Shown here: in pieces, positions 9,077 through 25,911 of the stretch
Numbering within the stretch: position 1 is the stretch's first letter
Layout of the letters: each line of letters begins with the position of its first letter
Source of the DNA: Rhizobiales bacterium GAS188
Lineage (GTDB): Bacteria > Pseudomonadota > Alphaproteobacteria > Rhizobiales > Beijerinckiaceae
Direction: 5' to 3'
NCBI GenBank assembly: GCA_900104855.1
Contig: FNSS01000001.1
Span: 6,891,001-6,955,000 of the forward strand
DNA length: 64,000 nt
Translations under genes and position numbers: made by a program
The notes under the pieces: model-generated
Databases searched by the model: none
Seen by the model: the letters and a program-made list of their open reading frames with translations, nothing else
What the model was told of the DNA's origin: nothing

Positions 9077-10238
9077 ATGCCCAATCTCGAACTGATCGAC
9101 AGCTATGCGGACGAACTCACTGCCATTCGCCGCGATATCCACGCCCATCCGGAGATCGGCTTCGAGGAAAAGCGCACCTCCGCGCTGGTGGCCGAGAAGC
9201 TGCAGGGCTGGGGTGTCGAGGTGCATCGCGGCCTTGGCGGCACCGGCGTCATCGGCATCGTCAAGGGGCGCAAGGACAATGGCAAGCGCATCGGCCTGCG
9301 CGCCGATATGGATGCGCTTCCGATGGAGGAGGCCACCAATCTTCCCTGGCGTTCCACCATCCCCAACCGCTTCCATGGCTGCGGCCATGACGGCCACACC
9401 ACGATCCTGCTCGGCACGGCGCGCTATCTTGCCGAGACCCGCAATTTCGACGGCTCGGCCGTCCTGATCTTCCAGCCGGCCGAGGAGGGGCTGGGCGGCG
9501 CGCGCGCCATGTTGAAGGATGGGCTGTTCCAGAAATTCCCATGCGACGAGGTCTATGGGCTGCACAACGCGCCCGATCTCGCGCCGCGCCAGGTGACGGT
9601 GCTGCCGGGGCCGGCCATGGCGGGAGCCGATTTCTTCGACATCACCGTGAAGGGCTATGGCAGCCATGGCGCCATGCCGCAATTCTCCAAGGACCCGATC
9701 ATCGCCGCCATGACGCTCGGCCAGGCCTTGCAGACCATCGTCAGCCGCAACGCCGATCCGCTCGAGGCGGCAGTGGTCTCGATCACGCAATTCCATGCAG
9801 GGTCGGCCTATAACGTCATCCCGGGCGAGGCGAAGCTCGCCGGCACCATCCGCACCTTCTCCGACGCGCTGCGGGCTCTCGCGCGAGCGCATGCGCACAA
9901 TCGCTGCCGGCATCGCTGCGAGCTTTGGGGTCGAGATCGATGTCGATATCCGCGACATCTTCACGGTGCTCGAGAACCATCCTGAGCAGACCGACGCCGT
10001 CGCCAAGGTCGCAACCGAGATCGTGGGTGCCGAGAACCTGTCGATGACCCCGTCCCCCAAAATGGGGAGCGAGGATTTCGCCGATATGCTGCGCGCGGTC
10101 CCAGGTGCCTATTTCTGGGTCGGCCATGAAGGCTCCGTGCCCGTCCATAATCCGGGCTTCGTGCTCGACGATGCCATCTTGCCGGTCGGCGCGAGCCTGA
10201 TGGCCCGCATCATCGAGACGCGCATGCCATTGGGGTGA
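9077..10238 (+). pseudogene. M20-family amidohydrolase (hippurate hydrolase-like), frameshifted
   Basis: The first 268 codons encode a normal M20D peptidase/amidohydrolase: DIHAHPEIGFEE, RADMDALPME, metal-binding GCGHDGH, the QPAEEG catalytic Glu region and a dimerisation domain with GSHGAMP. After the codon at 9878-9880 the frame is lost and the first frame stops at 9985. The rest of the protein (RERMRTIAAG, PKMGSEDFA, HNPGF) continues in the next frame to 10238. Family spacing (L-x-x-R-R-M) suggests loss of two bases at about 9881. This is a recent pseudogene or a sequencing error. Intact relatives hydrolyse N-acyl amino acids such as hippurate. Confidence 0.85.
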
Positions 10239-10245
10239 AGGCTTT

Positions 10246-10383
10246 CCCTCTCCCGCCCCTTGAGGCGGGAGAGGGTGCCGAGACGAAGTCGAGGCGGGTG
10301 AGGGACGCCTGTGAAGCGCTCGACGGTCCCTCATCCGACCTCACTACGTTCGGCCACCTTCTCCCGCGAAGAGCGGGAGAAGG
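10246..10383. repeat. Hairpin-ended dispersed repeat, copy A
   Basis: The element starts with a CTCTCCCGCC / GGCGGGAGAG hairpin and ends with a CTTCTCCCGC / GCGGGAGAAG hairpin. About 90 bp lie between them, including GTGCCGAGACGAAG and GAAGCGCTC. A homologous copy in reverse orientation is at 44218-44346. It lies between the M20 pseudogene and the LIV transporter promoter. It encodes nothing obvious and may be a REP/MITE-like mobile palindrome. Confidence 0.8.
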
Positions 10384-10428
10384 AATGGCGCACCGCGCTA
10401 GGAGCCGCTCGGTTGTGTCCCAAAAATA

Positions 10429-10442
10429 ATTAGATATATAAT
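10429..10442 (+). promoter_or_regulatory. Candidate MarR-type operator upstream of the LIV transporter operon
   Basis: The 14-mer ATTAGATATATAAT sits in an AT-rich island (about 10422-10450) 50 bp before the start of the first transporter gene. Its exact reverse complement occurs at 17263-17276, upstream of the marR gene and the first amidohydrolase. MarR regulators typically bind such AT-rich near-palindromes. The match is seen directly; binding is inferred. Confidence 0.6.
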
Positions 10443-10491
10443 CATCTGATAGCTACCCAATAGCGGATGGCGGTCGGTGGGAGGAGATGGT

Positions 10492-11667
10492 GTGAAGCGA
10501 CTGAGCCTGGCATGCTGCCTGATCGCAGCTCTGTCGATGACGCGCCCTGCGCTCGCCGCCGGCACGATCAAGATCGGCTTCATCGCCACACTGTCGGGCG
10601 CCCAGGGCGTCAACGGCCAGGAGCTTCTGGACGGCTTCAAGCTTGGGCTCGCCATGCATGGCAACAAGCTTGGCGGGCTCGAAGCCGAGCTCGTCATCGG
10701 CGATGACCAGTCGCGTCCGGATATCGGCCGCCAGCTCGCCGAGAAGATGCTGGAGAGCGACAAGGTCGACCTGATCACCGGCATCAATCAATCGAATGTG
10801 GTGCTCGCCATCATCAAGCCGGTGATCGACGCCAAGAGCATCCTGATCGGCCAGAATGGCGGCCCGTCCCAGCTCGCCGGCAAAGGTTGCACGCCGTATT
10901 TCTTCTCGGCCTCCTGGCAGAATGACGGGGTGCATGAGGCGATGGGCCAATATCTGCAGCAGCAAGGCGTCAAGCGCGTCTATCTGATGGCGCCGAACTA
11001 CCCGGCCGGCAAGGACGGACTCGCCGGATTCAAGCGCTTCTACAAAGGGGAGATTGCAGGCGAAGTGTACACGCAGTTCGGCCAGGTCGACTATGCGGCC
11101 GAGATCGCCGAGCTGCGCGCGAGGAAGCCCGACGCCCTCTATTTCTTCTATTCGGGCGGCATGGGGATCAATTTCCTCAAGCAATTCTCTCAAGCGGGGC
11201 TGCGCCAGGAGATCCCTCTCTATGGCCCATCATACTCGATCGATCAGACGATTCTGCCGGGCGTCGGGGAGGCGGCGGTCGGCGCCTATGCCAGCGCCTT
11301 CTGGAGCTCGCAGCTCGATAATGCTGACAACAAGGCCTTCGTCGAAGCATTCCGGCGCGCCCATGGCCGCCTGCCCGCCGCCTATGCGGCGCAGGCTTAT
11401 GATGCGGCCAGCTGGATCGATGCGACGGTGACTGCGATCGGCGGCAAGATCGACGACAAGCAAGCCTTCCGCAAGGCATTGGAAGCCGGACGCTTCCCGA
11501 GCGTGCGCGGCGGTTTCAGGCTCAATGCCAACCATTTCCCGATCGAGAATTTCTACCTGACCCAGATCGAGACGGACGGGAAGGGCGGCTTCGTCGACGC
11601 CTTGCGCTCAACGATCCTCACCGACCATGCCGATGCCTATGCGGGCGAATGCCGCATGCGGCCTTGA
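10492..11667 (+). CDS. LIV-type ABC transporter substrate-binding protein (SBP1)
   Basis: This 391-residue periplasmic binding protein belongs to the Peripla_BP_6 family, which captures branched-chain amino acids, amides or aromatic acids. It has a classical leader (KRLSLACCLIAALSM... ALAA), then the mature start TIKIGFIATLSG. The start is GTG 10492, preceded by GGGAGGAGATG; a GTG at 10477 would lie on top of this ribosome site. It is the first gene of an SBP-livH-livM-livG-livF operon. A close paralogue sits at 15485-16666, sharing YLMAPNYPAG and GGMGINF. The 14-bp operator upstream suggests MarR control. The ligand is unknown; nearby catabolic genes suggest a carboxylic aromatic compound. 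Confidence 0.9.
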   Translation: MKRLSLACCLIAALSMTRPALAAGTIKIGFIATLSGAQGVNGQELLDGFKLGLAMHGNKLGGLEAELVIGDDQSRPDIGRQLAEKMLESDKVDLITGINQSNVVLAIIKPVIDAKSILIGQNGGPSQLAGKGCTPYFFSASWQNDGVHEAMGQYLQQQGVKRVYLMAPNYPAGKDGLAGFKRFYKGEIAGEVYTQFGQVDYAAEIAELRARKPDALYFFYSGGMGINFLKQFSQAGLRQEIPLYGPSYSIDQTILPGVGEAAVGAYASAFWSSQLDNADNKAFVEAFRRAHGRLPAAYAAQAYDAASWIDATVTAIGGKIDDKQAFRKALEAGRFPSVRGGFRLNANHFPIENFYLTQIETDGKGGFVDALRSTILTDHADAYAGECRMRP

Positions 11668-11686
11668 CGGCGATCGGCGCGACGCA

Positions 11687-12559
11687 GTGACCTTGTCCCT
11701 CTTCCTCGAGCAGAGCCTCAACGGCGTGCAGCTCGGCGTCATGCTGTTCCTGGTGGCCGCAGGCCTCACTCTGGTCTTCGGCATCATGAACTTCATCAAC
11801 CTGGCGCATGGGGCGCTCTACATGCTCGGCGCCTATTTCGCGGTGACGGCGCAGACCCTCACCGGCTCCTTCCTCCTGGCGCTCGCCTTTGCCTTGCCGG
11901 CCACCGCCCTGGTCGGGGTCGCGGTTGAGATGACGACGTTGCGCCGGCTCTATGCGCGCAGCCATCTCGACCAGGTCCTGTGCAGCTTCGGCCTCATCAT
12001 GTTCGCCAATGCCGCGGTGCGCTTCATCTTCGGGCCGCTGCCGAAGCGCGCCGCCTTGCCGCCGCTCCTCGCGGGCACCGTCGAGATCATACCGGGGGCA
12101 CCTTATCCGGCCTTTCGCCTGGCGATCATCCTGGTCGGCCTCGCGGTCGCGGCCTTCCTCTTTGTCCTCGTCACCCGCACCAGGCTCGGCATGTTGATCA
12201 GGGCAGGGGCCTCGGATCGCGACATGGCCGCGGCGCTCGGCATCGACATCAAGCGGCTCTTCACTTGGGTCTTCGCGCTGGGCGCAGCGCTCGCGGCGCT
12301 CGCCGGCGCCATGGCCGGGCCGCTGCTCGCCGTGCAGGTCGGGATGGGCGATTCCATCCTCATCCTCACTCTGGTCGTCATCGTCATCGGCGGCGTCGGC
12401 TCGATCCGCGGCGCCGTGGTCGCTGCTCTGCTCGTCGGCCTGATCGACACCTTCGGCCGCGTGCTGTTGCCGCCGGCGCTCGCCGATATCGGCATCTACG
12501 TCCTGATGGCCATGGTCCTGGCCTTCCGTCCACGAGGTCTGTTCCCGGCTCATGGCTGA
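11687..12559 (+). CDS. livH: LIV-type ABC transporter permease (LivH family)
   Basis: The 290-residue inner-membrane permease has the LivH signature GLTLVFGIMNFINLAHGALYMLG near the N terminus, the EAA-like region GRDMAAALGIDIKRLF-type loop (here SDRDMAAALGIDIK), and about eight hydrophobic segments ending in MAMVLAFRPRGLF. I place the start at GTG 11687, 20 bp after the binding-protein stop, because the upstream in-frame extension overlaps that gene and is not membrane-like. Its 3' end overlaps livM by eight bases (ATGGCTGA). It pairs with LivM to form the transport channel. Confidence 0.9.
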   Translation: MTLSLFLEQSLNGVQLGVMLFLVAAGLTLVFGIMNFINLAHGALYMLGAYFAVTAQTLTGSFLLALAFALPATALVGVAVEMTTLRRLYARSHLDQVLCSFGLIMFANAAVRFIFGPLPKRAALPPLLAGTVEIIPGAPYPAFRLAIILVGLAVAAFLFVLVTRTRLGMLIRAGASDRDMAAALGIDIKRLFTWVFALGAALAALAGAMAGPLLAVQVGMGDSILILTLVVIVIGGVGSIRGAVVAALLVGLIDTFGRVLLPPALADIGIYVLMAMVLAFRPRGLFPAHG

Positions 12560-13598
12560 CACCGTTCTCGAACCCTTCCGGGCGGCGACGGCGCTGCGAA
12601 CAGAGGGGCGGCGCGCAGCCTTGCTCATCGGCATCGGAGTCGTCGTGCTTTGCGTCCTGCCGCTCGTGGCGACCCTGATCGGCGAGCCCTTCTACATCCG
12701 ACTCGCGACCAGGATCATGATCATCGCCATCGCCGCGATGAGCCTCGACCTCCTCATCGGCTTTGGCGGCATGGTGAGCCTCGGCCACGCTGCCTTCATC
12801 GGGGTCGGCGCCTATGTGACCGGCATCCTCAGCTATCACGCCGCCAATCAGGAACCGCTCTTCACCTGGCCTTTCCTGTTCATGGGATCGGACAACGCCT
12901 TCCTCGCCTGGCCGCTGGCGATCCTGTGCGCGGCGCTCGCGGCATTGCTGATCGGGATCGTGTCGCTCAGGGCAAGCGGCGTCTATTTCATCATGATCAC
13001 GCTCGCCTTCGCGCAGATGCTCTATTACCTGTTCATCGCGCTGCAGAAATATGGCGGCGAGGATGGGCTGCAGCTCGCGGCGCGCTCGAGCTTCGGACCG
13101 CTCGACCTCGATGACCGCCTGACCTTCTATTATCTGGTGCTCGCCGTGCTGGTCATCTGCGGCTATGCGGCGCGCCGCCTGGTGCGCTCGCGTTTCGGCA
13201 TGCTGGTGCGCGGCGCCATGCAGAATGAGCGCCGCATGCTGGCGGTGGGCTTCCCGGTCTTGCGCTACAAGCTCGCGGCCTTCGTGATCGCAGGCGCCAT
13301 GGCGGGTCTCGCCGGGGTGCTGCTCGCCAACAACCAGACCTTCGTCAGCCCGGCCGACATGGCCTGGACGCGCTCGGGCGAGCTGATCATCATGGTCGTG
13401 CTCGGCGGCGTCGGCACGCTCTACGGGCCGATGCTGGGCGCGGCCGTCTATGTCCTGCTCGAGCTCGTGCTCGGCAGCTACACTATCTATTGGCAGGCGA
13501 TCTTCGGGCCGGTGCTGATCCTCTTCGTGCTGTTCATGCCCGGCGGCCTGTTCCGCGCCCTCACCGGCGCCAACCCACAGGGAGGCGGCCCTGGCTGA
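12552..13598 (+). CDS. livM: LIV-type ABC transporter permease (LivM family)
   Basis: The 348-residue permease shows the LivM hallmark MSLDLLIGFGGMVSLGHAAF at about 59-78, the cytoplasmic loop QNERRMLAVGFPVLRYKL that contacts the ATPases, and the C-terminal GGVGTLYGPMLGA segment. About ten transmembrane helices are likely. The ATG at 12552 overlaps the livH stop. Its own stop overlaps the apparent CTG start of livG by the same eight-base arrangement (CTGGCTGA), so translation of the three genes is probably coupled. Confidence 0.92.
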   Translation: MADTVLEPFRAATALRTEGRRAALLIGIGVVVLCVLPLVATLIGEPFYIRLATRIMIIAIAAMSLDLLIGFGGMVSLGHAAFIGVGAYVTGILSYHAANQEPLFTWPFLFMGSDNAFLAWPLAILCAALAALLIGIVSLRASGVYFIMITLAFAQMLYYLFIALQKYGGEDGLQLAARSSFGPLDLDDRLTFYYLVLAVLVICGYAARRLVRSRFGMLVRGAMQNERRMLAVGFPVLRYKLAAFVIAGAMAGLAGVLLANNQTFVSPADMAWTRSGELIIMVVLGGVGTLYGPMLGAAVYVLLELVLGSYTIYWQAIFGPVLILFVLFMPGGLFRALTGANPQGGGPG

Positions 13599-14349
13599 GC
13601 CGGTCCTGCGGGTCGACAATCTCGTCAAGCGCTTCGGCGGCATCACCGCGACGGATCATCTCTCGCTCGAGATCGGGGAGGGCGAGTTTCACGCGATCAT
13701 CGGGCCGAACGGGGCCGGCAAGACGACGCTGCTGGCGCAGCTCTCGGGCGAGCTGCAGCCGACGAGCGGCCGCATCGCCTTTCGCGGCGCCGATATCACG
13801 GCGCTCTCCATGCCGGCCCGCTCGCAGCGCGGCATCGCCCGCTCGTTCCAGATCAACACGCTCTGCCGCGACTTCACGGCGCTCGACAATGTGGCGCTCG
13901 CCGTGCAGGCGCATCAGGGCCACTCCTTCCGCTTCTGGCGGCCGGCTCAAGAGGATGCGCGGCTGCGCGAGCCGGCCCTTCGCGTCCTCGACGAAGTGGG
14001 GCTCGCGAAGCGCGCCGACATCCCGGCGGGGCATCTAGCCCATGGCGAGCAGCGCCAGCTGGAAATGGCCTTGGCGCTGGCCACCAAACCGCGCCTGTTG
14101 CTGCTCGACGAGCCGATGGCCGGCATGGGAGCGGAGGATTCAGCCGCCATGGTCGAGCTCCTGAGTCGGCTCAAATCAAGCTACACGATCCTCCTCATCG
14201 AGCATGACATGGACGCGGTCTTTGCGCTCGCCGACCGCATCACCGTGCTCGTCTATGGACGCGCGATCGCGACCGGCACGGCGGACGCCGTCCAGGCCGA
14301 TCCCGAGGTGCAGCGCGCCTATCTCGGCGAGGATCATGTCGATGCTTGA
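13591..14349 (+). CDS. livG: LIV-type ABC transporter ATP-binding protein (LivG), apparent CTG start
   Basis: The 252-residue ATPase has Walker A GPNGAGKTT at about 34-42, a LivG-type Q-loop segment (RSFQINTLCRDFTALDN), a degenerate signature region (AHGEQRQLE), Walker B LLLLDEPMAGM and the His switch IEHDM. Nothing in frame between the upstream stop at 13516 and Walker A is ATG, GTG or TTG. The only plausible initiator is CTG at 13591, five bases after AGGGAGG and overlapping the livM stop as CTGGCTGA, mirroring ATGGCTGA at livH/livM. A start at ATG 13810 would remove Walker A. Either CTG is used or the gene recently lost its ATG. Confidence 0.85.
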   Translation: MAEPVLRVDNLVKRFGGITATDHLSLEIGEGEFHAIIGPNGAGKTTLLAQLSGELQPTSGRIAFRGADITALSMPARSQRGIARSFQINTLCRDFTALDNVALAVQAHQGHSFRFWRPAQEDARLREPALRVLDEVGLAKRADIPAGHLAHGEQRQLEMALALATKPRLLLLDEPMAGMGAEDSAAMVELLSRLKSSYTILLIEHDMDAVFALADRITVLVYGRAIATGTADAVQADPEVQRAYLGEDHVDA

Positions 14350-15043
14350 GCTGCGCGATCTCGCGGCCGGCTACGGCTCGAGCCAGGTGCTGTTCGGCGT
14401 CGATCTCAAGGTCGCGGCCGGCGAGGTCGTCACCCTGATCGGCCGCAACGGCATGGGCAAGACGACGACGGTCGGGTCGATCATGGGGATGGTCGGCGTG
14501 CGCGGCGGCAGCATCTCCTTCATGGGGCGCGATCTGCGCGGGATGCCGAGCCACCGCATCGCGCGCTGCGGCCTCGGCCTCGTGCCCGAAGGCCGTCGCA
14601 TCTTCCCCAATCTGACGGTGCGCGAGAACCTCCTGGCCATGGCCGCCGATCGCGACGGCGCCGCCTCGCCCTGGACCTTCGAGCGCGTCATGGAGCTGTT
14701 CCCGGCGCTGACCACGAGACTGACGAATTGGGGCAACCAGCTTTCAGGCGGCGAGCAGCAGATGCTCGCCATCGGCCGGGCCCTGATGACCAACCCGAAA
14801 CTCCTGATCCTCGACGAGGCGACCGAGGGCCTCGCGCCCTTGATCCGCGCCGAGATCTGGCGCTGCCTCGAACATCTCAAGGGGCTAGGCCAGGCGATCC
14901 TGGTGATCGACAAGAACCTCGATCAACTGATGCGCATCGCCGATCGGCACAATGTGCTCGAGAAGGGCCGCATCGTCTGGCGCGGCGACAGCGCCGCGCT
15001 GCGGGCGGACGACACGATCCGCCGGCGTTATCTCGGCGTCTGA
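14342..15043 (+). CDS. livF: LIV-type ABC transporter ATP-binding protein (LivF)
   Basis: The second ATPase of the importer is 233 residues: Walker A GRNGMGKTT, Q-loop region LVPEGRRIFPNLTV, signature LSGGEQQML, Walker B LLILDEATEGLAP, and a terminal switch reading VIDKN where the family usually has VEQN. The substitution of the switch region (VIDKNLD) is worth noting because LivF normally carries E-Q-N there. Two ATGs (14336 and 14342) are possible. I choose 14342 because AGGA then stands eight bases away. The gene overlaps the livG end by eight bases. Confidence 0.9.
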   Translation: MLELRDLAAGYGSSQVLFGVDLKVAAGEVVTLIGRNGMGKTTTVGSIMGMVGVRGGSISFMGRDLRGMPSHRIARCGLGLVPEGRRIFPNLTVRENLLAMAADRDGAASPWTFERVMELFPALTTRLTNWGNQLSGGEQQMLAIGRALMTNPKLLILDEATEGLAPLIRAEIWRCLEHLKGLGQAILVIDKNLDQLMRIADRHNVLEKGRIVWRGDSAALRADDTIRRRYLGV

Positions 15044-15154
15044 CGCCAGGCCGAGGCCGCGCAATGCCCTTATGGCTTGGCGATGTCATAATCGACGGAA
15101 CCAGCAAGTAGTACCCGGAAACACAGAGGGCTTTTACGTGGATCGCTAAGCGCT

Positions 15155-15300
15155 TATCCCTCCCATGCGGAGCAAATGCGGAGCAGGGGAGGGTGGCGAG
15201 CGCAGCGAGCCGGGTGGGGTCCGTATCCGGAGAAGTCCCCCACCCGTCCGCTCGGCAAGAGCCTCGCGGCCACCCTCCCCCGCTGTGCGGAGGAGGGATA
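15155..15300. repeat. Palindromic intergenic element with TATCCCTCC termini
   Basis: The element begins TATCCCTCC and ends with the exact inverted copy GGAGGGATA. Inside, GGGGAGGGTGGC and GCCACCCTCCCC form a second pair of arms, and GTGGGG/CCCCAC-type arms lie nearer the centre. The whole 146 bp can fold into one long hairpin. It lies between livF and the small membrane ORF. The layout resembles the 10246-10383 element but the sequence is different, so it is a separate repeat family. It could also end transcription of the converging operons. Confidence 0.65.
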
Positions 15301-15343
15301 GGCGCACGGCGGTCTACGTATCAACTTTCTATGATTCCCGGAG

Positions 15344-15454
15344 CTAGGGAGAAGGACTCCGTGGCCCAAAGAAGAGAGTAACTATTGCGAGTATGAGCAG
15401 AATTGCCACCATCCAGGCGAAATATTTCAATATTTCCTTCAGGCGATCAGGCAT
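15344..15454 (-). CDS. 36-residue single-span membrane protein
   Basis: The frame reads MPDRLKEILKYFAW, then a 16- to 18-residue hydrophobic stretch (MVAILLILAIVTLFFG), then a short PRSPSP tail. The charge pattern (basic N terminus) suggests one transmembrane helix. AGGA stands nine bases before the ATG. It begins 30 bp after the stop of the second binding-protein gene on the same strand, so it can be the third gene of a marR-SBP2 operon. I know no named family. It could assist the transporter or be an unrelated small membrane protein. Confidence 0.55.
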   Translation of the reverse strand: MPDRLKEILKYFAWMVAILLILAIVTLFFGPRSPSP

Positions 15455-15484
15455 TTTACATGGTCCTGTGAAGGATAATGAAGC

Positions 15485-16666
15485 CTATTTCTTCGCCATG
15501 GCGCATTCGGTTGCATAGGCGTCGGCGTGTTCCTCGAACACCGTGCCGATGAGCTTGTTCACCAGGCGCCCTTGTGCGTCCTTGGCGACCTCGGTCGCGT
15601 AGAAATCCTGGATCGGGAAATGATTGGCGTTGAAGCGGAACCGCCCCCGGACAGATTGGAACGGCGCATTTTCGAGCGCTTCGCGGAAGGCGCGTCTGTC
15701 GTCGATCCTGCCGCCGATAGCCTCGAGCGCCGCGGCGATCAGGCGGGCCCCGTCATAGCCTTGGGCCGCATAGGGCGCGGGGATCCGATGTTCGGTTGCC
15801 TCGAAGGCCTCGACGAAACGCCGATTGGCCGGGTTGTCGAGATCCTCGCTCCAGAAGGTCGTGGAGACGATGCCGAGCGCCGCATCGCCAATTCCCGGCA
15901 GCACCGTCTGGTCGATGGAGAAGGACGGCGCATAGAGCGGGATGGTCCCGGCGAGGCCGGCCTGCGCGAATTGCTTGGTGAAGTTGATCCCCATGCCGCC
16001 CGGGAAGAAGGCGAAGAGAGCTGGCGGGTTCACGCTGCGCATTTGCGCGATCTCGGCCGCGTAGTCGAGCTGCAGCCAGGTCGGGTAGACCTCCCCGACG
16101 ATGTCGCCATGATAGAAGCGCTTGAACCCCGCGATCATGTCGCGCCCGGCCGGATAATTCGGCGCCATCAGGTAGACGCCCTTCACCCCCTTGTCGCTGA
16201 GGTATTTCCCCATCGCCTCCGGGATGTTGTCGTTCTGCCAGGAGACGGAGAAGAAATAGGGATTGCAGCCCTTGCCGGCGAGCTGCGAGGGAGCCGCGTT
16301 GATGGAGATGAGAAAGGTCTTCGAATCGAGGACGGGCTTCGCGATCGCCAGCAGCACATTCGAGAAATTGATGCCGGTGACGATATCGACCCGGTCGCTC
16401 TCGACGAGCCTCTCGGCCAGCTGGCGTCCGACATCCGGCTTGCCCTGATCGTCGACCACGATCAGCTCGACCGGAAGGCGGCCGAGCTTGCCGCCGTTCT
16501 CGGCAATGCCGAGCTTGAAGCCCGCCAGCAGCTCTTCGCTGATCGCCGCGGCCGGCCCCGAGAAGGTCGAGATGAAGCCGATTTTCAGCACTTGCGCCGC
16601 CTCGGCAGCGCAAGGCGCCGCCGACAGCGCCAAGGCGAAAGCGGCAATGCGTGCAGCGCTTCTCAT
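15485..16666 (-). CDS. LIV-type ABC transporter substrate-binding protein (SBP2)
   Basis: This 393-residue Peripla_BP_6 protein has a Sec-type leader ending near AEAAQ and is collinear with SBP1 over its length (shared GKGC-x-PYFFS, YLMAPNYPAG, GGMGINF, FNANHFPI/LNANHFPI, and a HADAYA-x-EC tail with two conserved Cys). No permease or ATPase follows it, so it probably delivers ligand to the channel encoded at 11687-15043. Its ATG overlaps the marR stop by one base (TGATG), placing it in the marR operon. Paralogous binding proteins sharing one channel usually broaden ligand range; here the ligands are unknown. Confidence 0.9.
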   Translation of the reverse strand: MRSAARIAAFALALSAAPCAAEAAQVLKIGFISTFSGPAAAISEELLAGFKLGIAENGGKLGRLPVELIVVDDQGKPDVGRQLAERLVESDRVDIVTGINFSNVLLAIAKPVLDSKTFLISINAAPSQLAGKGCNPYFFSVSWQNDNIPEAMGKYLSDKGVKGVYLMAPNYPAGRDMIAGFKRFYHGDIVGEVYPTWLQLDYAAEIAQMRSVNPPALFAFFPGGMGINFTKQFAQAGLAGTIPLYAPSFSIDQTVLPGIGDAALGIVSTTFWSEDLDNPANRRFVEAFEATEHRIPAPYAAQGYDGARLIAAALEAIGGRIDDRRAFREALENAPFQSVRGRFRFNANHFPIQDFYATEVAKDAQGRLVNKLIGTVFEEHADAYATECAMAKK

Positions 16667-17187
16667 CAGCTTGCCTCACCCTCATCATGCTGGGCGGTTC
16701 TTGCTGCCTCATCGGCGAAATTGCCGATCAGCCTGTCGAGAGTGGCGCGAAACAGCGCCAGCTCCTTGGGCCTGACATTGCGACAAGCGATCTCATTGAC
16801 CTCGGCGGCAAGCGGCAGCAGCTCGACGCGCAAATCTTTGCCGCGTGCCGTGAGATGGACGTTGACGACGCGGCGGTCAGCGGTGCTGCGCACCCGCAGC
16901 ACCAGGCCTTCGCGCTCCATGCGGTCGAGCGCCACCGCCGTCGTCGGCGCCATCATGCCGACCTGGTCGCTGAGCTCGCGCTGGCTGAGCCCGTCCCGCT
17001 CCCACAGGATGCGCAGGAAGCGCCACATGCCGATCGTCACCCCATGCGGAGCGAGGCGCAATTGCAGGGCATGGGCCAAGGCGCGATGCGCGGCACGCAC
17101 CAGATAGGCGATGGTCGCGTCCTTGCACAGCACGCTTCCCGGGCTCGGCGTCAGCAGCAGCGGATCGGCGGATGGACGTCTCGGCAT
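16666..17187 (-). CDS. MarR-family transcriptional regulator
   Basis: The 173-residue protein has a winged helix typical of MarR: GMWRFLRILWERDGLSQREL, recognition helix region MMAPTTAVALDRME, and wing VLRVRSTADRRVVNVHLTARG. MarR proteins are dimeric repressors released by small, often phenolic, ligands. I use ATG 17187; upstream in-frame starts to 17259 exist but add a sequence unlike the family. It is translationally coupled to SBP2. A 14-bp site at 17263-17276 precedes it and recurs before the transporter operon, so it probably represses itself, both transport units and perhaps the divergent hydrolase genes. Confidence 0.88.
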   Translation of the reverse strand: MPRRPSADPLLLTPSPGSVLCKDATIAYLVRAAHRALAHALQLRLAPHGVTIGMWRFLRILWERDGLSQRELSDQVGMMAPTTAVALDRMEREGLVLRVRSTADRRVVNVHLTARGKDLRVELLPLAAEVNEIACRNVRPKELALFRATLDRLIGNFADEAARTAQHDEGEAS

Positions 17188-17262
17188 TGGTCTCGCTCGA
17201 AGCTTTCGGTTCGCCAGAAGGTCGGTGTCGCCGACCGACATTGACTCGGTAGTAAGCAAATA

Positions 17263-17276
17263 ATTATATATCTAAT
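17263..17276 (-). promoter_or_regulatory. Candidate MarR operator between marR and the amidohydrolase genes
   Basis: ATTATATATCTAAT on the plus strand is the exact reverse complement of the 14-mer at 10429-10442. It lies 76 bp before the marR start and about 100 bp before the first amidohydrolase, so one dimer could control both directions. The island is strikingly AT-rich against the GC-rich background. Confidence 0.6.
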
Positions 17277-17377
17277 GAAAATTTCCGCAACCCTGTGAGA
17301 CGCGATGCCGAGATGCCTTCAACACCCGCCGGGAGATCCCCCCGGCGCCATTCCGTGCGCGTGTCGTGGGTGCCGCC

Positions 17378-18382
17378 ATGCGCGTTGACGTCCATGCCCA
17401 TATCGTCGATCGCTGCTATCTCGAGCGCCTCGAAAGCCGCATGCGGCTCGAGGTCAGCCGCGAGGAGGGCAAGACCTTCCTGAAGCAGGCTGGCAGCACC
17501 GTCGCTTGGTACACCGAGCGCATGTTCGACGTGGATGCGCGCTTGCGCGACATGGATCGCCAGGGCATCGACATGCGCCTCTTGTCGGTGAGCACGCCCA
17601 ACGTCTACCCCTGGGATCTGCCGGCCCAGATCGACATCGCCCGCGACCTCAACGAGGCGACGGCGCGCCTGTGCCGGCGCCATCCCGGCCGGCTGCGCGG
17701 CTTGGCAGCCCTGCCGCTCCTTGACCCCGCCGCCGCGCTCGCCGAGCTCGAGCGCGCGCTCTCCGAGCCCGGCATGGTCGGCATCGCCATGGGCTCGAAC
17801 CTCGCCGGACGGCCGCTCAACGATCCGCTGCTGGAGCCGATCTGGGAACGCCTCGCCGACCTCGATCTGCCGATCTTCATCCATCCGATGTTCCCAGCCA
17901 ACGTCGCGGGTATGGACGAGTTCGAGCTGCCGATCCGGGTGGGTTTCGTCTTCGATACGACGGTCGCCGCGGCGCGCCTGATCTATGGCGGCGTGCTCGA
18001 GCGGCATCCGCGCCTGACGATCATCCTCGCCCATACGGGCGGCACGCTGCTGATGCTGGCCGAGCGGCTCGACAACGGCTACCGGCTGTTTCCGGAGTGC
18101 CGCAGATACATCCAGCAATTGCCGAGCCTCTATATGCGCCGCCTCTATTACGACACCGGCAGCTTCTTCGCCCCGGCGCTGGCGATGGCGCATGGGCTCG
18201 TCGGGGCTGACCGCATCCTCTATGGCAGCGACGATCCCTTCATCGGCGCCGACACCTCGCATGTCGAAGCGCTCGGCCTGCCACGGCCCGAGGAAGCCGC
18301 CATCCTGGGCGGCAATGCCGCAAGGCTGTTCCGCCTCGGCTCACCCGCGAGCCGTGACACGGCGCCGGCGGCGCCCATCTGA
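17378..18382 (+). CDS. ACMSD-like amidohydrolase/decarboxylase (Amidohydro_2), 1
   Basis: The 334-residue TIM-barrel protein matches the metal site of the aminocarboxymuconate-semialdehyde decarboxylase (ACMSD)/gamma-resorcylate decarboxylase group: His6 and His8 (DVHAHI), His169 (FIHPMF), His219 (LAHTGG) and Asp285 (YGSDDP). Such enzymes remove CO2 from aromatic or muconic acids, or hydrolyse ring-cleavage products. ATG 17378 is preferred; GTG 17366 adds only four residues. The gene is divergent from marR and first of three hydrolase genes. Its position next to two binding proteins of a LIV importer suggests it acts on the imported acid. Confidence 0.85.
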   Translation: MRVDVHAHIVDRCYLERLESRMRLEVSREEGKTFLKQAGSTVAWYTERMFDVDARLRDMDRQGIDMRLLSVSTPNVYPWDLPAQIDIARDLNEATARLCRRHPGRLRGLAALPLLDPAAALAELERALSEPGMVGIAMGSNLAGRPLNDPLLEPIWERLADLDLPIFIHPMFPANVAGMDEFELPIRVGFVFDTTVAAARLIYGGVLERHPRLTIILAHTGGTLLMLAERLDNGYRLFPECRRYIQQLPSLYMRRLYYDTGSFFAPALAMAHGLVGADRILYGSDDPFIGADTSHVEALGLPRPEEAAILGGNAARLFRLGSPASRDTAPAAPI

Positions 18383-18629
18383 ACGGCCGTTGCGCAGGGC
18401 TCAAGCCAGCATTGCGCCTCGCCGATAGGTCGAAGCCGAATCGCCAGAAGACTGCGTGCCGAGCCCAGAAGGAGCGCGTCGGCAGCGATCCCGAAGCGAC
18501 CCGACCGCCTCGCAACAATCGACAAACGGTTATGTCGGTTCGGCGATTTGGTGTAGATATCCGACTGCATCCGGGCGTTGGCGGGGCGCCGGATATGCGC
18601 TGAACGGATCTGCCCGAAAGGACCTGCGC
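18383..18629. other. Intergenic gap between first and second amidohydrolase
   Basis: This 247-bp gap separates two genes of the same orientation and is long enough for a second promoter. I see no copy of the 14-bp operator, no terminator-like hairpin with a T-run, and no convincing small ORF. Moderately AT-richer sequence lies at about 18510-18570. Confidence 0.3.
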
Positions 18630-19700
18630 GTGAAGCCTCCCCGGATTGGCGCCATCGATTGCGACATCCATCCGGCCTTGCCTGGCCTTGCGAGTCTCAT
18701 CCCCTATCTGTCCGAGCATTGGCGGGAGATGGTGCAGCAAGCGGGGCTGCACGAGCTCGACAGCATGAATTATCCGCCGGGCGCACCGATCTCGGCGCGC
18801 AGCGATTGGCGCCCTGCGCAAGGTAAGGCCGGCGGCAGCCTGGAGCAGATCCGTGCTCAGGCACTGGACCCTTTAGGCATCAGCATCGCGATCTGCAATT
18901 GCCTCTACGGTGTGCAGTTGCTGTTCAGCGAGGATATGGCGGCCGGCTTGTCGCGCGCCATCAATCGCTGGATGGCGAGCGAATGGCTTGATCGCGAGGA
19001 GAGGCTGCGCGCCTCGATCGTCATCCCGATGCAGAGCCCGGAGCTCGCTGTCGACGAGATCGAGCATTGGGCCGCAGATAAGCGCTTCGTCCAAGTGCTG
19101 ATGCTGGTCACGGGCGACATGCCGCTCGGCCGGCGCCATTACTGGCCGATCTACGCGGCCGCTGCCCGCCATGGCCTGCCGGTCGGCATCCATGCCGGCA
19201 GCAGCTTCCGCTACCCCACCACCCCGGTCGGCTGGACCTCGTATTACGCCGAGGATTACGTCAACCAGTCGCAAGCCTTCCAGACGCAATTGACGAGCCT
19301 GATCTGCGAAGGCGTCTTCTCGAAATTTCCAGAGCTGCGCGTGGTGCTGATCGAGTCTGGCTTCACCTGGTTGCCCGCGCATCTATGGCACCTCGGCAAG
19401 TTCTGGCGCGGCCTGCGCATGGAGGTTCCCTGGGTCGACCGGCCGCCTTTCGAGATCGTGCGCGATCAGGTCCGGCTGACCTTGCAACCCGCCGATGCGC
19501 CTCCCCAGCGCCAGCAATTCGAACGCCTGATCGAGCATATGGGCTCCGACAAGCTTCTGCTGTTCTCGACGGATTATCCGCATTGGCAATTCGATGGCGA
19601 GGAGGCCCTGCCAGACGGCCTGCCGGAGGCGATGATCCGCAAGATCCTCCTCGACAATCCGCGCGAGACCTATCCGCGCCTGATGGAGCTGGCGCAATGA
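18630..19700 (+). CDS. Amidohydrolase family protein (Amidohydro_2), 2
   Basis: The 356-residue metal-dependent hydrolase starts at GTG 18630, with AAAGGA eight bases upstream and the metal motif DCDIH at residues 10-14. Further ligands probably come from VGIHAG and the C-terminal STDYPHW. Its closest relative in the window is the next gene: both share Y-W-P-I-Y, LPVGIHA, VGWTSYY/GGWPSYY, V-x-IESGF-x-WLPA and DYPHW-x-FD, so they arose by duplication. The stop overlaps the next ATG (ATGA), so they are co-translated and may form a heteromer. Substrate unknown; a carboxylated aromatic ring product is plausible. Confidence 0.85.
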   Translation: MKPPRIGAIDCDIHPALPGLASLIPYLSEHWREMVQQAGLHELDSMNYPPGAPISARSDWRPAQGKAGGSLEQIRAQALDPLGISIAICNCLYGVQLLFSEDMAAGLSRAINRWMASEWLDREERLRASIVIPMQSPELAVDEIEHWAADKRFVQVLMLVTGDMPLGRRHYWPIYAAAARHGLPVGIHAGSSFRYPTTPVGWTSYYAEDYVNQSQAFQTQLTSLICEGVFSKFPELRVVLIESGFTWLPAHLWHLGKFWRGLRMEVPWVDRPPFEIVRDQVRLTLQPADAPPQRQQFERLIEHMGSDKLLLFSTDYPHWQFDGEEALPDGLPEAMIRKILLDNPRETYPRLMELAQ

Positions 19701-20809
19701 ACATCCACGCCGCGCCGAAGAGTGAGATCAAGCTCGAGCGGGCGACGCGCTTCCCGGTCGCCGATTGCGACCTCCACCCCGTACCCAACACCATCCGCGA
19801 TCTCTTCCCCTATCTCGAGACGCGCTGGCGCGAGCATTTCGAGAGCTTCGGCGTGAGGCGCCGGCAAGGCATCTTCCAAGGGCCCGTCTATCCGAAGGGA
19901 CAGCCGGATGCGGCGCGCCGCGACGCCTGGCCTCCGGGAGGCGGCAAGCCGGGCAGCAGCCTCGCCTTCATGCAGCAGCAGCATCTCGACGCCAATAATG
20001 TCGAGCTCGGCGTGCTCACCGTCATCAATCCGCATCCGGGCAATTACCAGAACCCGGATCAGAGCATTGCCATGTGCCGGGCCGTCAATGACTGGCAGGT
20101 CGCCGAATGGATCGAGAAGGATCGCCGCCTCAAGGGCTCGATCCTCACGGCCTATGAACATGGCGCGGCCGCCGTCGCCGAGATCGAGCGGCTCGCCGGA
20201 GACCCGAATTTCGTGCAGGTGTTCTTCCTCAGCCGCACCGCCCAGCCGCTCGGCAACCGCTGCTACTGGCCGATCTATGAGGCGGCGGCGCGCGCCAACC
20301 TGCCGGTCGGCATCCATGCCTTCGGCAATAGCGGCTTTCCGATCACGAGCGGCGGCTGGCCTTCCTACTATATCGAGGAGATGGCCGGCCACGCCCAATC
20401 CTGCCAATCGCAGGTGACGAGCCTCGTCCTCGAGGGCGTGTTCGAGGCCTTCCCGAGCTTGCGCGTCGTGTTCATCGAAAGCGGCTTCGGCTGGTTGCCG
20501 GCACTCAGCTGGCGGCTCGATGCGCATTGGAAGAAGCTCAGGAGCGAGAACCCCGCTCTCAAGCGGCTGCCTTCGGAATATATCCGCGAGCATATCTGGA
20601 TCACGACGCAGCCGATGGAGGAGCCCGAGCGGCCGCGCCATCTGCTCGATATCTTCGAGTGGATCGGTTGGGATCGCATCCTCTACGCATCCGATTATCC
20701 GCATTGGGATTTCGACGATCCGGCCCATGTCCTGCCGGGCGGCGTGAGCGACGAGCAGCGCAAGAAGCTGTTCTTGACCAATGCCCTGTCGCTCTACGGG
20801 GTCGGCTGA
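19697..20809 (+). CDS. Amidohydrolase family protein (Amidohydro_2), 3
   Basis: The 370-residue protein is the downstream twin of the previous gene, with DCDLH near residue 20, GIHAFG, IESGFGWLPA and SDYPHWDFD. It begins at the ATG overlapping the upstream stop; longer in-frame upstream sequence lies inside the neighbouring gene and is not part of it. It has an extra loop after the first motif (PVYPKGQPDAARRDAWP) that its twin carries in a shorter form. Followed four bases later by a Rieske protein gene. Function unassigned; the conserved pair plus Rieske order suggests a shared reaction sequence. Confidence 0.85.
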   Translation: MNIHAAPKSEIKLERATRFPVADCDLHPVPNTIRDLFPYLETRWREHFESFGVRRRQGIFQGPVYPKGQPDAARRDAWPPGGGKPGSSLAFMQQQHLDANNVELGVLTVINPHPGNYQNPDQSIAMCRAVNDWQVAEWIEKDRRLKGSILTAYEHGAAAVAEIERLAGDPNFVQVFFLSRTAQPLGNRCYWPIYEAAARANLPVGIHAFGNSGFPITSGGWPSYYIEEMAGHAQSCQSQVTSLVLEGVFEAFPSLRVVFIESGFGWLPALSWRLDAHWKKLRSENPALKRLPSEYIREHIWITTQPMEEPERPRHLLDIFEWIGWDRILYASDYPHWDFDDPAHVLPGGVSDEQRKKLFLTNALSLYGVG

Positions 20810-20813
20810 CGAG

Positions 20814-21227
20814 ATGGCTAAGCATGTTGTGGCGCCCCTCAAGGACCTGCCGCCGGGATCGCGCAGGCTGGTTACGGTCAAGGGGCGAGGGGTCGCGGTG
20901 TTCAATGTGGGAGGCGAGCTCTTCGCGCTCGTCGATCGCTGCCCACACAAGGGCGGCAGCCTGTGCGAGGGAAAGCTCACGGGGCTCGTGCAATCGCCGG
21001 AGCCTGGACAATATGCCTATTCGCGCCCGGGCGAGATCCTGCGCTGTCCCTGGCATGGCTGGGAATTCGATATCCGCACCGGCAAATCCCGCTGCGAGCC
21101 CGAGCGCATCAAGGCGAAGAGCTATCCGGTCGCGGTCGAGCCGGGCGGCGAGCTGAGCGAGGGGCCCTACACGCTCGAGACCTTCCCGGTTTCGGTCGAG
21201 CAGGACTATGTCGTGTTGACGATCTGA
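20814..21227 (+). CDS. Rieske [2Fe-2S] protein, ferredoxin-like
   Basis: The 137-residue protein has both Rieske cluster motifs: Cys43-x-His45 (CPHKGG) and Cys78-x-x-His81 (CPWHGWEFD). The 32 residues between them exceed the usual 15-17 by a loop (TGLVQSPEPGQYAYSRPGE). No catalytic oxygenase domain is fused, so it should act as an electron carrier or small accessory subunit. It begins four bases after the third amidohydrolase in the same operon. No reductase or oxygenase large subunit is nearby, leaving its redox partner unknown. From memory, similar long-loop Rieske proteins accompany Amidohydro_2 genes in other bacteria. Confidence 0.88.
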   Translation: MAKHVVAPLKDLPPGSRRLVTVKGRGVAVFNVGGELFALVDRCPHKGGSLCEGKLTGLVQSPEPGQYAYSRPGEILRCPWHGWEFDIRTGKSRCEPERIKAKSYPVAVEPGGELSEGPYTLETFPVSVEQDYVVLTI

Positions 21228-21240
21228 GCATCCCCACCAT

Positions 21241-21291
21241 GCCGGCTGGAAGCCGGCGATCCGGCCCTGGGACCGCCGGCTTCCAGCCGGC
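21241..21291. repeat. Perfect 18-bp inverted repeat (hairpin) after the Rieske gene
   Basis: Arms at 21241-21258 and 21274-21291 are exact inverted copies containing GCCGGCTGGAAGCCGGC, separated by 15 bases. The hairpin starts 14 bp after the Rieske stop. No T-run follows, so it is either a REP-type palindrome or a transcript-stabilising or attenuating structure, not a canonical intrinsic terminator. The rest of the gap to 21532 holds GC-rich repeated GGCACGGCG strings and the RND operon promoter region; no gene is visible. Confidence 0.7.
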
Positions 21292-21532
21292 AATACGCTC
21301 CGCGTCCCCTTGACATGGCGCCGTGGGACCCTAACTGAAACCCTCCTTTCGCGCGGCACGGCGTGGGGCCGCCGCGGCCCCCGACGCCGCCCGAGGGGAC
21401 AAGGCACGGCGCGCGGTGCAAGGGACGCGTCGGCAGCAAAAGAACGAGTTGCGGGGAGGGCGGGAACGATCAGGCGAGGCATGTTCGTGGTATTGGCCAC
21501 GGCGAATTCACATCGCGAGCGAAGGCAGGATC

Positions 21533-22687
21533 ATGCTTAGATCGAAGTCGAGACTAGTCGGATTTTCTCTCGCGGCCCTGCTTCTCGCCTATGGCCTTCC
21601 CTTTGCAGCCCTGGCCCAGACGGCCGCGCCGCCTCCGCCCCCGGTGACGGTCGCCAAGCCCATCGTCAAGGACGTCCAGGAATGGGATGAGTTCATCGGG
21701 CGCTTCGAGGCGGTCGACCAGGTCGATATCAGGTCGCGCGTATCCGGCTATCTCGACAAGGTGCAGTTCGTGGACGGTGCCATCGTCAAGGCCGGCGATC
21801 TCCTGTTCACCATCGATCAGCGGCCCTATCAGACAGCGCTCGAACAGGCTCAGGCCGATCTCAAATCCGCGCAGGCGCGTCTTGAATTCGCCCAGACCGA
21901 CGCCGAGCGCGCTGAATCGCTGCGCAAGACCGGCAATATCTCAGAGCAGATCTTCGATCAGCGGCGCCAGGCGCTCTTGACCACGCGCGCCGATGCCGAT
22001 CGGGCGCAAGCCACGCTCGATCGCGCCAAGCTCGATATGGAATATACCGAGATCCGCGCGCCGCTGGCCGGACGCATCTCGCGCCGCCTGATCTCGCCGG
22101 GCAACCTCGTCAACGCCAACGACACCCTGCTCACCAATATCGTGGCGACCGATCCGATCTATTTCTATTTCGACGTCGACGAACGCTCTTATCTCGACTA
22201 CCTCGCCGCCGGCCTCAACGGCACGCGCGTCTCGAAGGAAGTGGGCGATATCTTTGTGGCGCTGACCAATGAGCGCGAGCCCGCCCATAAGGGCAGGCTC
22301 GACTTCCTCGACAACCGTATCGACCAGGCGAGCGGCACGATCCGTGGGCGCGGCGTGTTCGAAAACGGGGATTTGAAGCTCACGCCCGGCCTGTTCGGCC
22401 GCGTGCGCATCCTCGGCGCGGCGCTGCATCGCGGCATCCTCTTGCCCGAGGAGGCGTTCGCCACCGACCAGGATCGGCGCATCGTCTATGTGGTAGGCAC
22501 CGACAACAAGATCACGGCGAAAACGGTGCGCATGGGGCCGCATATCGACGGGTATCGCGTCGTCCGCGACGGGCTTTCCGGCGACGAGACCGTCGTCGTC
22601 AACGGGCTGATGCGAGTGCGCCCGGGCGTTGTCGTCGATCCGCAGATGACGAACCTGCCGCCCACGCGCGAACGCGTCGGCGGCTGA
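21533..22687 (+). CDS. RND efflux periplasmic adaptor (membrane fusion protein)
   Basis: The 384-residue adaptor links an inner-membrane RND pump to an outer-membrane channel. A signal peptide ends near AALAQ. The biotinyl-lipoyl half motifs (IRSRVSGYLDKVQFVDGAIVKAGDLLF-type, here DIRSRVSGYL and KAGDLLFTID) flank a coiled-coil hairpin (about residues 95-165, rich in Q, A and E). Beta-barrel and membrane-proximal domains follow, with YTEIRAPLAGRISRRL. Start ATG 21533 has AGGA upstream and is followed by the leader. It is 29 bp upstream of the pump gene. No tolC homologue or dedicated TetR repressor is adjacent. Confidence 0.93.
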   Translation: MLRSKSRLVGFSLAALLLAYGLPFAALAQTAAPPPPPVTVAKPIVKDVQEWDEFIGRFEAVDQVDIRSRVSGYLDKVQFVDGAIVKAGDLLFTIDQRPYQTALEQAQADLKSAQARLEFAQTDAERAESLRKTGNISEQIFDQRRQALLTTRADADRAQATLDRAKLDMEYTEIRAPLAGRISRRLISPGNLVNANDTLLTNIVATDPIYFYFDVDERSYLDYLAAGLNGTRVSKEVGDIFVALTNEREPAHKGRLDFLDNRIDQASGTIRGRGVFENGDLKLTPGLFGRVRILGAALHRGILLPEEAFATDQDRRIVYVVGTDNKITAKTVRMGPHIDGYRVVRDGLSGDETVVVNGLMRVRPGVVVDPQMTNLPPTRERVGG

Positions 22688-22716
22688 TCTCAGACACAGA
22701 CGGCAAGCCCAAAACC

Positions 22717-25700: not shown

Positions 25701-25911
25701 GGTGATCGCCACCGGCCCGGGGGCGGAAATGCGCCAGGCGCTCGGCACCGCGGTGTTCTTCGGGATGGTGGGGGTGACCTTGTTCGGCCTGTTCTTCACG
25801 CCGGTGTTTTACGTGGCCATCCGCACGCTGGTCCTCTGGATGCGCGGGCCGGAGCGTCGGCGCAAGCTGCCGGATGAGCCGCGCGACAGCGCCTCGGGCG
25901 CGACTGCCTAG
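22717..25911 (+). CDS. RND multidrug efflux pump, inner-membrane transporter (HAE1 family)
   Basis: The 1064-residue protein has the AcrB/MexB plan: a short N-terminal segment (FSHFFVDRPIFATVLAIVL), two large periplasmic loops and twelve transmembrane helices. The proton-relay Asp pair lies in GIVVDDAIVVVENVERN in TM4, and the C-terminal motif LVGLAAKNAILIVEFA is present. It forms a homotrimer exporting drugs or lipophilic compounds with the adaptor encoded just upstream. Length is normal for HAE1. Substrates cannot be predicted. Local regulation is unclear; the GlxA-like gene downstream converges on it. Confidence 0.95.
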   Translation: MRFSHFFVDRPIFATVLAIVLVIVGMVAYSGLPVAQYPEIAPPTIVVRASYPGANADTVAATVATPIEQEVNGVEDMLYMSSYSTGDGNLSLTITFKLGTDLDKAQVLVQNRVAIAAPRLPDEVKRLGVTTLKSSPDLMMVVHMLSPDNTYDQLYVSNYARNNVRDELLRLNGVGDLTIFGERQYSLRVWLDPEKLAAFGLTAGDVTRAIQEQNIQVSGGALGQEPTPSAGAFQITVTTQGRLQDPRQFRQIIVRSTPDGRLVRVQDVARVELGAQDYLTNSYLNGKPAVALVIFQRPNTNALQAAADITRTMQRLKENFPPGIDYTIVYNPTEFIAQSVDAVYHTLFEAVLLVILVILVFLQSWRTAIIPIIAIPVSLIGTFAVMSAFGFSLNNLTLFGMVLAIGIVVDDAIVVVENVERNIAHGMSPRDASHETMDEVGTALIAIALVLTAVFVPTAFIPGLSGQFYRQFALTIAVSTLISAFLSLTLSPALAAFLLRPHTHEASRNPLARFGRFLADSFNGGFARMANGYAAAVGLLARRKSIVLPLYALLIGATVWVAMRVPQGFIPTLDQGYAIIIAQLPDGASLSRTDAVTRRISDIAQTTPGAANAVAFAGFSAATFTNATNSAAVFVAFKPFDERVQAGQSAASIIKDLTTRLQVIQEAFVIVIPPPPVRGIGNAGGFKLQLQDRAAAEVGPVLARAYELMGKARQDPKVAGVFTTFSAGSPQIYLDIDRQKAQILNVPIANIFETLQDNLGVAYVNDFNAFGRVYQVRAQADQRFRVDAEDLNRLRVRSSTGALVPMGTLAEAREVSGPSLVQRYNMYVSVPLQGVAAPGVSSGAALSEMEDLAHQVLPRGMAYEWTDLAFQQRATGNTAIFVFALSVVFVFLVLAAQYESWALPLAIVLIVPMSVLAALGGVLLRDMDNNILTQIGLVVLVGLAAKNAILIVEFAREAEIRDGKDPIAAAVEACRLRLRPILMTALAFTLGVLPLVIATGPGAEMRQALGTAVFFGMVGVTLFGLFFTPVFYVAIRTLVLWMRGPERRRKLPDEPRDSASGATA

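Follow-up and report, generated by a model that had tools for sequence, protein, structure and literature searches.

The locus considered here raises the question of whether an importer, a regulator and several amidohydrolase-family genes that stand side by side form one inducible catabolic system, and which kind of enzyme such a system would contain. It occupies positions 10426-21227 of a 64,000-nucleotide stretch of Rhizobiales bacterium GAS188 (C1:6891001-6955000 in a three-contig genome of 9.09 Mb), and this whole stretch is called the window below. The reading that we favor, with a probability of about 0.5, is a composite locus, in which a cassette with a MarR-controlled aromatic-acid importer and a decarboxylase-like enzyme would have been inserted upstream of an operon for an amidohydrolase-related dinuclear oxygenase (ARO) and would probably now drive that operon. 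The gene layout of the original prediction, made from the sequence alone, was recovered in full: a plus-strand operon for one substrate-binding protein (SBP1) and the LivH, LivM, LivG and LivF subunits; a minus-strand unit of a MarR gene, a second binding protein gene (SBP2) and a small open reading frame (ORF); and a plus-strand run of three PF04909 (Amidohydro_2) genes, named here H1, H2 and H3, with a Rieske gene.

The H2-H3-Rieske triad and its metal site

The last three genes of the run, H2 (18630-19700), H3 (19697-20809) and the small Rieske gene (20814-21227), are all on the plus strand, with a four-base overlap between H2 and H3 and four bases between H3 and the Rieske gene. The best matches of H2 in the PDB were AibH1 chains (6m1w_A and 8ful_A, ~1e-85) and that of H3 was AibH2 (6m1w_B, 7.3e-94), and for both proteins the next group was 8sm6-8sm9. 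The scores against ACMSD and gamma-resorcylate decarboxylase were far weaker, namely 2e-8 and 7e-9 for H2 in the PDB search, and 8e-10 and 6e-15 for H3 (5.8e-15 for the best mononuclear enzyme in phmmer). The Rieske protein (PF00355, 6.6e-17) contains the motif C-x-H...C-x2-H and is like the ferredoxin AibG in position and motif. AROs were defined in PMC10811679, where the Rieske neighborhood served for finding new ones.

Concerning the metal site, PMC7782822 and PMC10401708 give D25, H27, H211, E265, D337 and H340 as the dinuclear ligands of AibH2, together with the second-sphere residue D342, which is absent from AibH1. For AibH1H2, a content of ~3 metals per heterodimer is given in PMC10401708. 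In the alignment, H3 keeps all six ligands (D25, H27, H207, E261, D333 and H336) and the second-sphere Asp as D338, that is, 7/7 site residues, and H2 presents a Gln at the D342 position. The same pattern was scored in two sets of loci. One comprises the best 80 of at least 591 loci with H3 relatives, several of them on cut contigs, and the other comprises 27 loci of the order (L093-L119, with the window's own L092 and the most distant L120 and L121 left out). Copies covering less than 75% of the query were left out, and the remaining ones were sorted into H2 and H3 by similarity, without using position 342. All seven residues were present in 81/81 and 26/26 H3 copies, respectively, and Asp or Glu at position 342 was found in 0/71 and 0/25 H2 copies. 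One H2 copy in each set carries Gln at the first-His position.

Furthermore, an AlphaFold2 model of H3 (pLDDT 77.5, 14 sequences) was compared by Foldseek, and AibH2 ranked first (TM score for the query, 0.84), followed by the other AROs (SfbO, 0.82) and then by AibH1 and PtmU3 (0.72). The decarboxylases listed ranked below the AROs, with values of ~0.58-0.68. An oxygenase is present because H2 and H3 are AibH1/AibH2-type subunits accompanied by a Rieske ferredoxin, and we assign the triad with high confidence to the AibH1H2G type of ARO, H3 being the catalytic subunit and H2 its partner. Hence, the three ACMSD-like hydrolases that had been proposed are reduced to one, since only H1 is ACMSD-like. 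The kind of oxygenase is a known one, and what is new is its gene setting.

The best-characterized relative is the 2-aminoisobutyrate monooxygenase AibH1H2GF of Rhodococcus wratislaviensis (PDB 6M1W, 8FUN). Both systems have a pair of PF04909 subunits encoded in the same order, a catalytic subunit with the six ligands and D342, a partner without D342, and a small Rieske gene directly 3' of them; H3 and AibH2 are ~40-42% identical in the structural alignment. On the other hand, a reductase gene is adjacent in the Rhodococcus cluster and none is adjacent here, and the LysR regulator and amino-acid permease found there are replaced by a MarR regulator and a LIV-type importer in the window. H3 shares its site residues with SfbO and further candidate AROs (PDB 8SM6-8SM9), but Met229 and His232 of H3 (read by eye) take the places of R232 and R235 of SfbO, two arginines that are reported to bind sulfate.

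A block between the M20 gene and the oxygenase

Among the best 80 loci, the closest oxygenase relatives are L012 and L013, whose H3 proteins are 85% and 81% identical to that of the window. Both loci are colinear with the window on the two sides of the importer region, having a class-I glutamine-amidotransferase-like gene and an M20 gene (identified by Pfam in L012) on one side and H2-H3-Rieske on the other. The matches to the M20 gene and to H2 are ~177 bp apart in L012, versus 8.4 kb in the window, where the interval is filled by the importer, SBP2, MarR and H1. Moreover, the sequence immediately preceding H2 is conserved between L012 and L013 (score of 31 in the alignment versus a shuffled mean of 10.8), and no counterpart of it above chance was found at either edge of the window's block. 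The colinearity and the missing upstream sequence are most simply read as an insertion of the block (10240-18616) in the window's lineage, with replacement of the 5' region of the oxygenase operon, and we regard this insertion as probable.

If the ancestral upstream region was lost, the oxygenase must depend either on DNA that came with the block or on a promoter newly arisen in the gap between H1 and H2, which measures 247 bp and separates two genes of the same strand. Read-through from the promoter of H1, predicted to be under MarR control, is the likely solution. A terminator scan of 10200-21500 returned 4 sites versus 5.6 in shuffled sequences. Palindromic intergenic repeats were seen at 10244-10385, at the left edge of the block, and at 15109-15346, in the gap between livF and SBP2, with inverted arms (42 nt and 55 nt, respectively) that are 74% and 71% complementary. 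The M20 peptidase/amidohydrolase gene of the window (9077-10238) shows a frame change near 9865-9876, which may be a sequencing error; the gene is intact in L012 and L013.

Regarding the wider distribution of the triad, H3 relatives were detected at E 1e-60 in 32/397 genomes of the order, including the own genome. Across the best 80 loci, 72 have H2 next to H3 and 58 contain the full triad; PMC10401708 reports 555 AibH2-like proteins, 90% of them accompanied by a neighboring small Rieske gene and 40% by permeases. No match to this MarR or to H1 was found near the triad (0/80 loci for each; tblastn, E 1e-8, minimum of 60 bits, best query per place), and 42 of the 80 loci span at least 5 kb upstream and at least 3 kb downstream of it. 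LIV permease matches of low identity appeared beside the triad in two loci (L017 and L047), a livG/livF-like pair stands at a contig edge in L058, and L052 and L065 gave weak binding-protein matches (23% and 26%). The neighbors found instead, next to the triad or to H2-H3 alone, are diverse and comprise sugar importers together with a trehalase-family gene, a further sugar importer accompanied by a ferredoxin subunit and a flavin adenine dinucleotide-dependent oxidoreductase, peptide-type transporters, TTT receptors and others. Clustering of the neighboring ORFs gave the same picture of diversity, with a ferredoxin-reductase-type cluster in 4 loci. A conserved unit of importer and oxygenase was consequently rejected, given the missing MarR and H1 and the mostly missing LIV genes in these 80 loci. 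The check named in the original prediction, whether hydrolases and transporter co-occur, likewise speaks against a conserved single system, as the triad recurs without this MarR and H1 and mostly without a LIV importer, and its two closest orthologues lack the entire block at the equivalent place. No description of this gene arrangement was found in the titles and abstract openings of the papers listed by searches of the open-licence PubMed Central (PMC) literature.

The same genome contains a second, independent ARO pair with a Rieske gene at C2:57-74 kb (within L203, C2:55000-74900), together with a LIV-type importer, a ferredoxin reductase, a coenzyme A (CoA)-transferase and an acyl-CoA dehydrogenase, so that the combination of a LIV importer and an ARO occurs at least twice in this genome. 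By eye, all seven residues are intact in the catalytic subunit of the second cluster, and most metal ligands are missing from its partner subunit. The reductase of this cluster may be the electron supplier of the triad in the window, and another candidate is located at C1:5102635. Directly after the Rieske gene of the window, a membrane-fusion-protein-like gene and an RND-pump-like gene were recognized by eye at 21416-25911.

Importer, H1 and the repeated operator-like site

The importer is a complete LIV-type system encoded in one operon on the plus strand, with one binding protein, two BPD_transp_2 permeases and two ATPases. SBP1 (10477-11667, with a likely start at 10492 by eye) belongs to the Peripla_BP_6 family (PF13458, 5e-76; PDB 4evq, 1.2e-57). 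It is followed by the permeases of livH type (11627-12559, PF02653; likely start ~11687 by eye) and livM type (12552-13598, PF02653), and by the ATPases of livG type (13591-14349) and livF type (14342-15043, PF00005). The livG assignment is based on the translation, with UrtD/LivG matches of NCBIfam below the cut-off; its 5' end lacks ATG, GTG and TTG and reads from a CTG at 13591 that overlaps the livM stop, and with standard start-codon lists only a 179-amino-acid fragment is obtained. On the minus strand, SBP2 (15485-16666; PF13458, 3.4e-81; PDB 4evq, 2.3e-54) and the MarR-family regulator (16666-17259; PF01047, 6.3e-13; start at 17259, 17241 or later) are accompanied by a 36-amino-acid ORF with one hydrophobic stretch (15344-15454), whose coding status is uncertain.

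SBP1 and SBP2 are 61% identical to each other; in the PDB, the sequences closest to them are 4evq, 4zpj and 4ey3. We take 4evq and 4ey3, as well as 4evs and 4f06, to be aromatic-acid binding proteins of Rhodopseudomonas. Binding proteins of R. palustris that bind benzoate, hydroxybenzoate and cinnamic-type acids are described in PMC3223731. The closest complete importers fetched from the order (L162-L165) have binding proteins 59-63% identical and other subunits 50-67% identical to those of the window, and the neighborhoods of L163, L164, L165 and five plasmid relatives were examined. In L163, the same 20 kb contain a gentisate 1,2-dioxygenase, a maleylacetoacetate isomerase and a benzoate-CoA ligase family gene, all over the curated cut-off. 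In L164, a 3-hydroxybenzoate 6-monooxygenase and a maleylacetoacetate isomerase passed it and a gentisate-dioxygenase-like gene fell below it, and in L165 the sole gene scanned was a fumarylacetoacetate-hydrolase-like one, also below. Two of the five plasmid relatives belong to clusters with salicylyl-CoA hydroxylase, CoA ligase and MarR genes. SBP-livHMGF operons of gentisate, 3-hydroxybenzoate and salicylyl/aminobenzoyl-CoA-type clusters resemble the one in the window in gene order, in binding proteins ~50-63% identical and, in several of them, in a nearby MarR-type gene. They differ in using gentisate dioxygenase or CoA-ligase routes, in contrast to the H1, ARO and second binding protein found here. 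These neighbors make an aromatic acid the best guess for the importer, which probably carries such a compound, and in this sense the proposal of a MarR-linked uptake and catabolic locus is supported.

H1 (17366-18382, plus strand, PF04909; start at 17366 or 17378) has ACMSD (6e-34), gamma-resorcylate decarboxylase (6e-32) and 5-carboxyvanillate decarboxylase (6e-31) as its closest PDB entries. By eye on the alignment, it keeps the Zn ligands H9, H11, H177 and D294, the catalytic H228 and the Arg239 of ACMSD, positions that it has in common with this group of decarboxylases. However, the Arg51 and Trp194 of ACMSD are not retained, and counting on the alignments places Ala47 and an Ile there; the Arg51 position rests on numbering, as an Arg-to-Ala exchange seems to be present at this position in the two PDB chains of the alignments (4ign is titled R47A). 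The roles of the ACMSD residues named here (Zn ligands, His228, Arg51, Trp194 and Arg239) are those given in PMC11650718. ACMSD proper was rejected as the identity of H1 on account of the two replaced substrate-binding residues, and these replacements suggest that H1 is probably a relative acting on another substrate. H1 relatives were found at E 1e-50 in 6/397 genomes of the order, including its own, the best other being 40% identical, and relatives of the MarR protein at E 1e-25 in 13/397, again including its own.

The two copies of an operator-like site that had been noticed by reading are exact ones. The 14-mer ATTAGATATATAAT lies upstream of the importer operon at 10429-10442 (plus strand) and in the divergent MarR/H1 promoter at 17263-17276 (minus strand), and these are its only exact copies in the 9.09-Mb genome, where a single one-mismatch copy was found elsewhere. 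A reversed control pattern gave zero matches genome-wide, and no further site at up to three mismatches was found in the window, for which shuffled sequences average 0.27 matches. The two exact sites join the importer operon to the MarR/SBP2/H1 promoter, and the gene of the winged-helix MarR protein adjoins this repeated palindrome-like site. We regard MarR control of the importer and H1 as probable. The surroundings of the one-mismatch copy at C1:2193191 (L171) show no obvious catabolic genes. A two-mismatch copy was seen at C1 ~5227330 (L170), ~95 bp upstream of a periplasmic binding-protein-like gene. The region C1:5226000-5262900 (L202, L170) also holds a gentisate 1,2-dioxygenase gene over the cut-off, ~17 kb from a paralogous LIV importer, with maleylacetoacetate-isomerase-like and MarR-like genes, named by eye, beside it.

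Competing readings and their meaning

The mechanism that we propose for the composite locus is as follows. H3 would hold a two-metal site (Mn/Fe or Fe/Fe) that activates O2, with H2 as its mononuclear-site partner, and the Rieske protein would pass electrons from a reductase encoded elsewhere. The 8.4-kb cassette (SBP1-livHMGF, SBP2, MarR and H1) would have been inserted between the pre-existing M20 gene and the oxygenase operon. Through the two identical operators, MarR would repress both the divergent MarR-SBP2/H1 promoter and the importer operon, and an aromatic (hydroxybenzoate-like) acid or a derivative would relieve this repression. Both binding proteins would serve one importer, and the acid brought in would be the substrate of H1, probably a non-oxidative decarboxylase or a related C-C lyase. 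The insertion would have removed the conserved upstream region of the oxygenase, which would probably be transcribed with H1 and could hydroxylate or dealkylate the same substrate or its product. The parts of this proposal differ in strength. The chances for and against co-control of the oxygenase with the importer and H1 are about even, and an aromatic substrate for the oxygenase is a tentative idea, a weaker guess than for the importer. The whole chain, that is, a heteromeric ARO acting on an aromatic acid and brought into an aromatic-acid MarR regulon by a cassette that replaced its promoter, is rather unlikely to hold in every link.

Several results weigh against the composite system. No site resembling ATTAGATATATAAT was found upstream of H2 in the window scan at up to three mismatches, so that MarR control of the oxygenase is indirect at best; the single regulon that had been predicted is supported for the importer operon and the divergent MarR/H1 promoter, which share the operators, and may extend to the oxygenase. 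A new promoter in the 247-bp gap may serve the oxygenase instead. Concerning the direction of change, DNA identities of 78-81% place the window, L012 and L013 at about the same distance from one another, which leaves room for a loss of the block in the relatives and makes the direction depend on outgroups. The cassette as a unit was seen in no other genome among those searched, nor was the complete assembly of cassette and oxygenase, and its functional unity is thus without comparative support. Among the plasmid importer relatives, one of the five stands beside a fumarylacetoacetate-hydrolase family gene alone and two are in no clear aromatic cluster. AibF, the reductase of the Aib system, contains flavin mononucleotide (FMN) and a 2Fe-2S domain. 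No ferredoxin reductase was present among the genes read around the triad; the two PF14759 reductases found elsewhere in the genome are that of the second ARO cluster and that at C1:5102635, and the FMN plus 2Fe-2S type was not searched genome-wide. Finally, the sugar, peptide, TTT and other transporters beside ARO relatives indicate that aromatic substrates are not a family trait, and the substrate of AibH2 is an amino acid, 2-aminoisobutyrate (PMC7782822 and PMC10401708).

The most serious competitor, still unlikely but with a real chance, is that the cassette landed by chance beside an oxygenase operon that is transcribed from a new promoter of its own and whose enzyme works on an unrelated substrate. 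The lack of any relative of this MarR or H1 beside the triad in the 80 loci, the absence of an operator at H2 and the separate history revealed by the colinearity would all be expected from two unrelated neighbors. This is opposed by the placement of H2 close behind H1 on the same strand, by the disappearance of the ancestral upstream region and by the second LIV-ARO cluster of the genome. LIV importers carry amino acids too, and a less probable alternative is one system for a non-aromatic acid, with an amino-acid-like or amide-derived cargo that the ARO hydroxylates and with H1 as a hydrolase. It is in agreement with the M20 amidohydrolase that adjoins the closest oxygenase relatives and with the chemistry of AibH2. 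Nevertheless, the importer relatives share their stretches with gentisate, 3-hydroxybenzoate and CoA-aromatic genes, the nearest PDB sequences of the binding proteins include two that we take to be aromatic-acid binders, and the M20 gene carries a frame change here, with the reservation about sequencing error given above. The model of three ACMSD-like hydrolases in an aromatic pathway with no oxygenase and with the Rieske protein as an accessory is very improbable and was rejected: PF04909 is common to the three proteins and H1 fits, but H2 and H3 match oxygenase subunits at 1e-85 and 7e-94, far better than the decarboxylases, and the dinuclear ligand set of H3 is complete.

If the composite reading is true, the locus would encode an aerobic aromatic route without a flavin hydroxylase, a classical Rieske dioxygenase or a CoA ligase. 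ARO genes are annotated as amidohydrolases and are easily mistaken for hydrolases. According to PMC10401708, AROs form a large and uncharacterized family whose neighborhoods offer few functional clues. In the window, the ARO has as its neighbors one importer with its two binding proteins, a MarR regulator together with an operator-like site in two copies, and an enzyme resembling decarboxylases, and ligand screening of the binding proteins and the regulator would be a practicable way of finding a candidate substrate for the ARO. In this way, the importer block beside the ARO hints at possible substrates of a little-understood enzyme family.

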